DNA from: an uncultured Flavobacteriales bacterium
GTDB lineage: Bacteria; Bacteroidota; Bacteroidia; Flavobacteriales_E; Vicingaceae
Length of the DNA: 38,582 bases
Assembly (NCBI GenBank): GCA_913056345.1
Contig: CAJXMH010000029.1
Coordinates: 1 to 38,582, forward strand
Direction: 5' to 3'
In this document: one piece after another, positions 17,245 to 37,498 of the stretch
Position numbering within the stretch: the stretch's first letter is position 1
Layout of the letters: every line of letters starts with the position of its first letter
Translations under genes and position numbers: made by a program
The notes under the pieces: generated by a model
Seen by the model: only the letters and a program-made list of their open reading frames with translations
The model's database searches: none
Told to the model about the DNA's origin: nothing

Positions 17245-17295
17245 TGCTTGCCCTGAGTGATTCCGATTTATCGGAAGTGTATCGAAGGGCGCTTT
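17245..17295. repeat. Intergenic palindromic repeat with nested hairpin
   Basis: An inner hairpin TTCCGAT-TT-ATCGGAA (17261-17276) sits inside an outer GCCCT...AGGGC pairing (about 17250-17290). The pattern CCCTGAGTGATTCCGA followed by ATCGAAGGG is a type of dispersed intergenic element I recognise from Bacteroidota genomes. Only one copy is in this window, so dispersion cannot be shown here. Confidence 0.6.
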
Positions 17296-33989: not shown

Positions 33990-34103
33990 CGGGCTTCTCG
34001 ACTCCCTGCCCGAAAAGCAGGCGGGCGCTCGAAGTCCGCTCTCTACTTGCTTCGGCTCTGCTCAGTAGAAGCCGCTCGAAGACTGTTCAAAAGTTGATTC
34101 GGC
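33990..34103. repeat. Intergenic repeat, copy C, composite
   Basis: It starts CTTCTCGACTCCCTGCCCG, has the core AAAAGCAGGCGGGCGCTCG (34014-34032), then AGTCCGCTCTC, an inserted CTTCGGCTCTGCTCAGTAG, GCCGCTCGAAGACTG and TTCAAAAGTTGATTCGGCTT. A CTTTARG tract follows to about 34200. It fills the space between the second propeller gene and the convergent Kelch gene. Confidence 0.75.
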
Positions 34104-34207
34104 TTAGGGCTTTTCGCTTTAGGCTTTTTACTCTTTAACTTTCCCCTCTTCTACTTTTCAACCTTAAACTTTAAACTTTAGGCTTTAGACTGTGCGCTTT
34201 TTGTTTG

Positions 34208-36332: not shown

Positions 36333-36573
36333 AACGGCTTCTCGACTCCGCTCGAAGACCGTTCTCGACTTACTGCCCGAAAAGCAGGCGGGCGCTCGAA
36401 GACCGTTCTCGACTCACTGCCCGAAAGAAGGCGGGCACTCGAAGACCGTTCTCGACTCACTTCGACGGGGCTCAGTACAGGCCGCTCGAAATCACGTCCG
36501 TACTCCTCGACTCCGTACTCCTCGACTCCGCTCGGAGTGCGGAGATGTAAAAAGGTCCTCGAGCGGAGCCGAA
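36333..36573. repeat. Intergenic repeat block D, several tandem units
   Basis: At least three units of about 45 bases carry CTCGACTYACTGCCCG, AAAGCAGGCGGGCGCTCG or a variant, and AAGACCGTTCTCGACT. They are followed by a GCTCAGTACAGGCCGCTCG unit, a doubled ACTCCTCGACTCC and a partial copy (36549-36572) of the hairpin that begins at 36574. An apparent ORF at 36324-36632 is only the repeat read in one frame. This is the most repeat-dense part of the window. Confidence 0.8.
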
Positions 36574-36607
36574 AAAAGGACCTCGAGCGGAGTCGAGAGG
36601 CCCTTTT
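36574..36607 (-). terminator. Repeat-derived terminator hairpin after the GIY-YIG gene
   Basis: A 34-base imperfect palindrome with A-run and T-run ends and the core CCTCGAGCGGAGTCGAG. It starts 6 bases past the minus-strand stop of the GIY-YIG gene. A near-identical copy (one mismatch) lies at 37033-37066 after ridA. Confidence 0.75.
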
Positions 36608-36613
36608 TAATAG

Positions 36614-36916
36614 TTATTCTTTCGCTTTATAATGACTTTTATTCATGCATTCTGCCAAAGGGTGCAGCAAATCAATCCGTCCACTCATTAAAGCAAGCTT
36701 CTTTTTTCTACTCCACTTTTGAACTTGCTTTTCTCGCTCAAATGCAAAATCAATTCGTTGGAACTTTTCGTAATAAACCAATTTAACAGGAAGATGCTTC
36801 TTAGTGTAGTTTGCTCCCTCACCTGCTTGGTGCTGAGCAATTCTTCGGTCTAAATCTTTGGTACTTCCAGTGTAAAAAGTGCCGTTGGAACACTCTAAAA
36901 TGTACATGTATCCCAT
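36614..36916 (-). CDS. Small GIY-YIG family nuclease-like protein
   Basis: The protein is about 100 residues, a single GIY-YIG domain. The GIY-YIG signature appears as MYILEC...FYTGST. The conserved Arg is in DLDRRIAQHQ, followed by GEGANYTKKHLPVKLVYYEKF and the metal-binding Glu in FEREKQVQKWSRKKK. The ORF can open at GTG 36919, ATG 36916 or ATG 36907; I use 36916. Small single-domain GIY-YIG proteins are common in Bacteroidota and usually uncharacterised; some relatives cut single-stranded DNA. It is bracketed by palindromic repeat blocks on both sides and shares no operon with other genes. Confidence 0.88.
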   Translation of the reverse strand: MGYMYILECSNGTFYTGSTKDLDRRIAQHQAGEGANYTKKHLPVKLVYYEKFQRIDFAFEREKQVQKWSRKKKLALMSGRIDLLHPLAECMNKSHYKAKE

Positions 36917-36944
36917 CACCGTATAAAAATAGTGAATTAGAATG

Positions 36945-37031
36945 AACGGGCTTCTCGACTTCGCTCGAAGACCGTTCTCGACTCCCTGCCCGAAAAGCAG
37001 GCGGGCGCTCAGAGTCCGTTTTAAGACCGTT
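36945..37031. repeat. Intergenic repeat block E
   Basis: GGGCTTCTCGACTTCGCTCG, AAGACCGTTCTCGACTCC, CTGCCCGAAAAGCAGGCG, GGCGCTCAGAGTCCGTTTT and AAGACCGTTC run in series. The unit order matches copies A-D. It lies between the GIY-YIG start and the ridA terminator. Confidence 0.78.
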
Positions 37032-37032
37032 C

Positions 37033-37066
37033 AAAAGGACCTCGAGCGAAGTCGAGAGGCCCTTTT
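37033..37066 (-). terminator. Repeat-derived terminator hairpin after the RidA-family gene
   Basis: A 34-base copy of the hairpin at 36574-36607 with one mismatch (GCGAAG instead of GCGGAG in the loop), 15 bases past the minus-strand stop of the RidA gene, ending in a T-run on that strand. Confidence 0.78.
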
Positions 37067-37081: not shown

Positions 37082-37498
37082 TTAAAACGTCGCAATCACC
37101 TTTAACTCAATGGCAATTGGTGTGGGTAAGCTTTTAATTTCAAGGGTGGTTCGGCAAGGCTGATTGTCTTTGAAAAACTCAGCATACAAACGATTGTAAG
37201 TTTTAAAATCGTCTTTCATATTGGTGAGAAATACCGTTACGTCAACTACATTCTCCCATTTGGCTCCAGCCTCTTCCACAATGGTTTTTACATTGTTAAA
37301 AACAGAGATACACTGCTTTTCAATGTCGTAAGAAAGAATGTTGCCGTCATCATCTAGCTCCACTCCGGGAATTTTCTTGGTGCCTCTTTCTCTTGGTCCT
37401 ACCCCAGATAAAAAGAGCAGATTTCCTACTTTTCGTGCATGAGGATATGCCCCAACTGGTTCCGGTGCTTTCTGTGAATCAAATTTATCGCTCGCCAT
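37082..37498 (-). CDS. RidA/YjgF family protein, 2-aminomuconate-deaminase-like
   Basis: The 138-residue protein has the RidA fold: VGAYPHARKVGNLLFLSG at the N-terminus, then SVFNNVKTIVEEAGA, the VDVTVFLTNMKDDF core, and the substrate-binding arginine Arg116 in CRTTLEIKSLP. Family members deaminate reactive enamines or 2-aminomuconate. The C-terminal IELKVIATF carries Lys133 where enteric RidA has a Glu (IEIEAIA), so the canonical imine-hydrolysis chemistry is uncertain and an AmnD-like activity is possible. No kynurenine-pathway gene lies nearby to support that. The gene is divergent from the DUF4197 lipoprotein gene. Confidence 0.87.
   Translation of the reverse strand: MASDKFDSQKAPEPVGAYPHARKVGNLLFLSGVGPRERGTKKIPGVELDDDGNILSYDIEKQCISVFNNVKTIVEEAGAKWENVVDVTVFLTNMKDDFKTYNRLYAEFFKDNQPCRTTLEIKSLPTPIAIELKVIATF

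Follow-up and report, generated by a model that had tools for sequence, protein, structure and literature searches.

Small stand-alone GIY-YIG enzymes paired with a repeated target have a precedent in Neisseria meningitidis, in which Ssn is reportedly a GIY-YIG, site-specific, single-stranded nuclease that goes with the NTS repeats. Its homologs are said to be numerous and to differ in specificity. If this description of Ssn holds, the locus described here, which lies in a stretch of 38,582 nucleotides analysed as a whole (the window), is presumably a new member of the Ssn family. Both systems have a small GIY-YIG enzyme that stands alone and goes with a repeated sequence of its own; in the present gene family the repeat is found next to the gene and also scattered through the genome, as expected of an Ssn-like system. 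Unlike Ssn, the gene sits here inside an inverted bracket of hairpins with the core GAG/TCGA.

The second comparison is with REP and BIME elements and their RAYT (TnpA-REP) enzymes. These have in common with the present locus small scattered palindromes, inverted pairs and an enzyme gene bracketed by its own repeats. The enzyme here, however, is a GIY-YIG protein; the HUH/Y1 domain is absent, and PF01541 is the sole Pfam match. The nearest solved structures by sequence are UPF0213/Slx1-like GIY-YIG proteins, BH0048 (PDB 1zg2, E 2e-15) and EF2693 (1ywl, 5e-12), and we know of no repeat association for either. GIY-YIG homing endonucleases, free-standing or intron-encoded, share the catalytic domain, and a similarly selfish behaviour is conceivable. 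In contrast to them, the present gene is not associated with an intron, is too short to encode a DNA-binding tail, and lies beside its presumed target; the NCBIfam intron model scores 19.5 on the protein against a cut-off of 56. A nuclease with its repeat is a known type of locus; the enzyme may in addition have a repeat-spreading role like that of REP/RAYT systems.

The GIY-YIG gene and its hairpins

The gene starts with GTG, followed by ATG, and its product of 101 residues matches PF01541 far above the Pfam cut-off of 22.6 bits, with little besides the GIY-YIG domain. The initial annotation had placed this gene between two near-identical palindromes of 34 nucleotides. The two copies (B1 and B2 in Table 1) are real: they differ at one position and reach a direct-repeat score of 31, and the best of 100 dinucleotide-shuffled 3-kb regions reached 16. 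The palindrome itself is imperfect, with an outer stem AAAAGG/CCTTTT, an A/C mismatch, an inner stem CCTC/GAGG and the core GAGCGRAGTCGA, and as DNA it folds only slightly better than shuffled sequence (z −1.4 and −1.9). Three further hairpins, A1, C1 and A2, carry this core on the other strand and had been missed.

Read 5' to 3', B1 is AAAAGG-a-CCTC-GAGCGGAGTCGA-GAGG-c-CCTTTT, and A2 on the minus strand is AACGG-t-CTTC-GAGCGAAGTCGA-GAAG-c-CCGTT. From these two layouts, the element consists of an outer stem, a mismatch, an inner stem of 4 bp and a core of 12 nt. A2 and B1 are the hairpins nearest to the gene; they are inverted and face each other, with A2 38 nt before the aligned start of the gene and B1 20 nt after its aligned end. 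Because this closest pair is inverted, the direct 34-mers B1 and B2 are not the ends of the unit. Our hairpin detector, which looks for GAG...TCGA enclosed by at least four perfect pairs, gave six hits in this 0.7 kb, corresponding to five separate hairpins. Shuffled whole 38.6-kb windows gave a mean of 0.32 hits.

Table 1. Features of the GIY-YIG locus (positions are those of the window)
Feature	Position	Strand	Remark
GIY-YIG endonuclease gene, 101 aa	36614..36919	-	Pfam PF01541, 71 bits
Hairpin B1 (first 34-mer), downstream half of the inverted bracket	36574..36607	+	terminator-like for the GIY-YIG gene
Hairpin A2, upstream half of the inverted bracket	36945..36976	-	
Hairpin B2 (second 34-mer)	37033..37066	+	15 nt past the RidA stop codon; terminator-like for RidA
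Hairpin A1, second copy of A2	36333..36363	-	far side of the gene
Hairpin C1	36517..36538	-	common core, different stem ACTCC/GGAGT
Truncated hairpin copy	36551-36575		next after C1
72-nt block, first copy	36336..36407	+	92% identity to 36949-37020, across the gene
72-nt block, second copy	36949..37020	+	
Three tandem units of about 44 nt	36349..36469	+	starts at 36349, 36393 and 36436
Decayed dispersed block of the locus's repeats	34000..34106	+	between two other genes
RidA-family gene, neighbour (context)	37082..37498	-	Pfam PF01042

The hairpins could simply be transcription terminators, or mRNA-stabilising hairpins of compact genes, and the GIY-YIG gene would then be incidental. Two minus-strand stretches, 36581-36598 and 37040-37057, fit the terminator pattern and lie directly behind the stop codons of the GIY-YIG and RidA genes. 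However, this variant of the hairpin has only seven near-matches in the 2.9 Mb of the window's own genome, four of them at this gene, and it is thus no general terminator. Hairpins also precede the gene, their orientations are fixed and opposite, and their inner pair tracks the nuclease, as described below. We regard the terminator explanation as improbable; use of the hairpins as terminators may be secondary. With the variant so rare, nothing points to its having spread recently in this strain.

Association, target shape and match to the enzyme

The initial annotation expected genes of this type to lie beside the same repeats in other genomes more often than by chance, and this expectation was borne out. 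We fetched 70 homologous loci with their flanks from other genomes and derived the generalised core by gapped-dyad enrichment. The exact palindrome of the window is present in few of these loci, nearly always near the gene. A detector hairpin lies within 400 bp of the gene at 58 of the 70 loci and was not found within that distance at the other 12. The density of hairpins is 3.05 per kb near the gene, 0.066 per kb far from it and 0.011 per kb in shuffled sequence. A motif-free search placed repeat pairs on both sides of the gene at 33 of the 57 loci with sufficient flank, compared with 1.2% of sliding control positions, and gapped-word enrichment recovered TGAG-N5-CGAA in 37 of the 70 near regions against 2.0 expected. 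Orientation is strongly biased: within 80 nt, the nearest upstream hairpin is on the strand of the gene in 26 cases and on the other strand in one, and the nearest downstream hairpin is on the opposite strand in 30 cases and on the same strand in eight. The layout in the window is this layout of facing hairpins.

For the spread across phyla we rely on named isolates (Brasilonema, sphingomonads, Emticicia, Psychroflexus and Thermoflavifilum) and treat other assignments with reserve. Binning errors may lie behind two close pairs from distant taxa (L057/L058). Titles of sequence records proved a poor guide to taxonomy: one locus labelled 'Verrucomicrobia' (L025) shares its contig with G036:C37, which belongs to the family of the window.

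In instances chosen by the core alone, with no stem required, the bases at outer-stem positions 1 to 6 pair in 93, 91, 85, 83, 54 and 55% of cases, compared with 74, 59, 29, 39, 32 and 33% when the partners are redealt, and each position is occupied by two to four kinds of Watson-Crick pair. As judged from these pairings, the stems are maintained through compensatory changes. Within the core, the base that follows GAG is able to pair with the one that precedes TCGA, as in GAGC..GTCGA, GAGG..CTCGA and GAGT..ATCGA; in the last type the inner stem is often long. With a paired outer stem and a varying inner pair, the conserved feature is a GAG/TCGA internal loop with a helix on either side.

On the 67-row protein tree, the class of the inner pair (C, G or T) requires seven changes, compared with 27.4 on average and 22 at the least after shuffling. 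Once near relatives are thinned out to leave 24 rows, the signal is weaker, with six changes against 8.9 after shuffling (minimum 6). We counted the cores in 49 whole genomes, each assigned to the class of its own gene. C-type cores numbered 1414 in C-class genomes (90 with a reversed-pattern control), 101 (32) in T-class and 225 (15) in G-class genomes. G-type cores numbered 101 (8) in G-class, 53 (39) in C-class and 30 (23) in T-class genomes, and T-type cores 218 (112) in T-class, 259 (230) in C-class and 103 (75) in G-class genomes. The excess of own-class cores is significant in all three classes (p 0.0002, 0.00009 and 0.004), with the provisos that the counts include gene-adjacent copies, which weigh on the small G- and T-class numbers, and that related genomes are not independent. 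In these sequences, the inner-pair class follows the protein tree and predicts the class of hairpin that is scattered through the genome.

One C-class genome (G053) has 161 copies, and 20 of the 23 listed close neighbours are inverted, as in BIMEs. Within the window's family, the median number of C-type copies per Mb is 2.8 in genomes with a homolog at E ≤1e-17 and 0.32 in those without (p 0.0025). There are exceptions, among them G016, with many copies and no close homolog of the window gene. Two further observations concern individual hairpins. A lone T-class hairpin, GCCCTGAGTGATTCCGATTTATCGGAAGTGTATCGAAGGGC, is intergenic at positions 17250-17290 of the window. At L011 (G000:C3, locus positions 980-1175), in the window's own genome, two hairpin cores, TGAGCGGAGTCGAAG, lie in frame inside the open reading frame and encode RLSGVE; the stretch is coiled-coil-like in appearance, and a tandem array of variants is found behind the gene.

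These data bear on two alternatives. Another enzyme, such as a RAYT/Y1 transposase or a recombinase, might spread the repeats, with the GIY-YIG gene as a passenger or late guest. The layout and the inverted pairs do resemble REP/BIME elements, but the tight link, the orientation and the co-variation of the inner pair all involve the GIY-YIG gene, in many genomes, and we find a foreign enzyme distinctly improbable. Alternatively, the gene and the repeats might occur together simply because certain intergenic regions tolerate both small genes and repeats, as the gene-free repeat block in the window could be taken to indicate. Tolerance would not lead one to expect the orientation bias, the short spacing, the inner-pair co-variation or the genome-wide match of class, and we give this explanation hardly any credence.

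Selection, presence and absence of the unit

At least 97% of the hairpin-associated relatives keep the catalytic residues Y5, Y15, R25, H29 and E62. Of nine close pairs, eight have a dN/dS between 0.03 and 0.24; the value of 0.70 for the ninth (L056/L059) rests on four differences. The sequence comparison thus shows purifying selection on the nuclease gene.

Many pairs of loci align over the unit alone and have unrelated flanks, for example L034 and L037 (90% over about 496 bp) and L057 and L058 (91% over 359 bp). In a related genus (g8), one site between VF530 and SDR genes was found in several states. In G024 the site is empty of gene and hairpins alike; in G016 it carries two decayed hairpins but lacks the gene; and in G025 the full unit is present, in the order hairpins, gene, hairpin. 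In G021 the unit adjoins the same SDR gene with a different gene on its far side, and G026 has hairpins upstream of SDR and no GIY-YIG gene. The flanks of this site are strongly diverged between the genomes. Judged by this alignment, a site other than that of the window exists with and without the unit in relatives, which is compatible with gain or with loss. An empty site of the kind sought by the initial annotation occurs in a related genus; at the window's own site (RidA, DUF4197), a synteny search of 46 family genomes yielded no empty version. Two near-identical Chlorobiaceae loci (L056/L059) differ beside the gene by a 360-bp hairpin indel, the ends of which are inside hairpin copies.

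It could be that the nuclease uses its dispersed targets to control DNA uptake or recombination, with no spreading of repeats, and that the copies arise by ordinary recombination. This would accord with the role reported for Neisseria Ssn and with the low copy number in the window's own genome. Against it, most genomes have the gene itself between repeats, and one and the same site occurs with and without the unit, a combination that fits a self-serving element. We consider uptake or recombination control without spreading rather unlikely, although such control and repeat spreading could both be true together.

Related GIY-YIG groups and the proposed role

The window's own genome (G000, a 2.9-Mb draft) has eight GIY-YIG matches, six of which are small stand-alone genes, and these adjoin differing repeats. 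L001 has direct repeats of 80 nt (90%), L003 has inverted repeats of 34 nt, TTGTCATGCTGAGCGATAGTCGAAGCATAAACAA (88%), and L004 has direct repeats of 47 nt that take in the end of a tRNA-Met gene. L005 is near tmRNA, and L007 is near tRNA-Pro. In the window's family of genomes, 11 GIY-YIG proteins (L104-L114) form a well-supported clade, at whose loci we found no GAG/TCGA hairpin. Around several of these genes there are brackets of other repeats, such as CGTCATTGCGAGGGAGGCACGACCGAAGCAATCTG and CGTCATTGCGAGG..CGAAGCAATCTG at L113 and a repeat of the TTCCTGCGCAGGCAGGAATC type at L107. This suggests further enzyme-repeat pairs, so that the pairing seems to exceed one motif.

A second group, of an 82-residue type, was observed at tRNA genes of the same family outside the window (L199, at G000:C6:93987-94232, and L200-L220). 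A tRNA gene is within 300 bp at 10 of its 14 distinct sites, compared with 2 of 100 main-set loci, and part of the tRNA is often duplicated across the gene. The duplicated part is the tRNA 3' part plus terminator (44-70 nt) at L199, L200, L201 and L216, and the 5' part at L202, L207 and L208, where the copy at L208 reaches the anticodon. Such a gene may form a tiny mobile unit, one that targets tRNA genes for insertion and brings half of a tRNA with it. In G007 (C2:183595-186086; L206, L212, L215 and L217-L220), an intact tRNA-Met gene is followed immediately by a tandem array of about 7.8 copies with a period of 379 bp and a 96% match. Every repeat unit combines a GIY-YIG gene with an anticodon-loop-like CGGCTCATATCCG, the 3' part of tRNA-Met and a terminator. 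An outlying GIY-YIG gene, L085 (462-710), lies between two tRNA-Ser genes, which have 31 nt at the 3' end and 28 nt at the 5' end in common.

Returning to the window, the locus is probably a minimal nuclease-plus-target unit, a GIY-YIG gene between inverted hairpins that are its presumed recognition elements. The sequence data that support this comprise the association, the inverted bracket, the stem covariation, the inner-pair co-variation, the dispersed copies, the selection on the gene, and the presence and absence of the unit at one site. Very probably the enzyme recognises the hairpin repeats; it may also spread them, which is the least certain step. We envisage that a repeat strand which becomes single during replication, repair or DNA uptake would fold into the hairpin, exposing the internal loop GAG/TCGA between the variable outer stem and the inner closing pair. 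The nuclease would read the shape of the loop and the inner pair, bind, and nick the single strand of the hairpin. Repair, recombination or template switching at such nicks could then copy, move, expand or lose hairpins, and the gene-carrying unit would be copied or moved more rarely than the hairpins. The initial annotation had likened the locus to a REP/RAYT system with a GIY-YIG nuclease as its enzyme. The tie to the nuclease holds in the association, the co-varying inner pair, the dispersed copies and the occupied and empty site; the spreading of repeats is kept here as a conjecture.

More broadly, and tentatively, at a little short of an even chance, GIY-YIG nucleases of this kind would be the mobilising enzymes of a large class of GAG/TCGA palindromes (for example CCCTGAGCTTGTCGAAGGG). 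They would form a GIY-YIG counterpart of REP/RAYT, with co-evolving enzyme and hairpin, in Bacteroidota, the Chlorobi group, cyanobacteria and sphingomonads, and a related group would exploit tRNA genes similarly. Repeats of the TGAGC..GTCGAA type reach tens to more than 100 copies in many genomes. In our literature search we found no account that names or explains them, and searches on GIY-YIG with REP and on the repeat sequences returned nothing relevant. Each of these repeats now has a candidate enzyme, a well-defined target shape and an inner pair open to exchange in vitro, so that direct tests can address what reads and spreads them, and such nucleases are a possible source of sequence-specific single-strand cutters.
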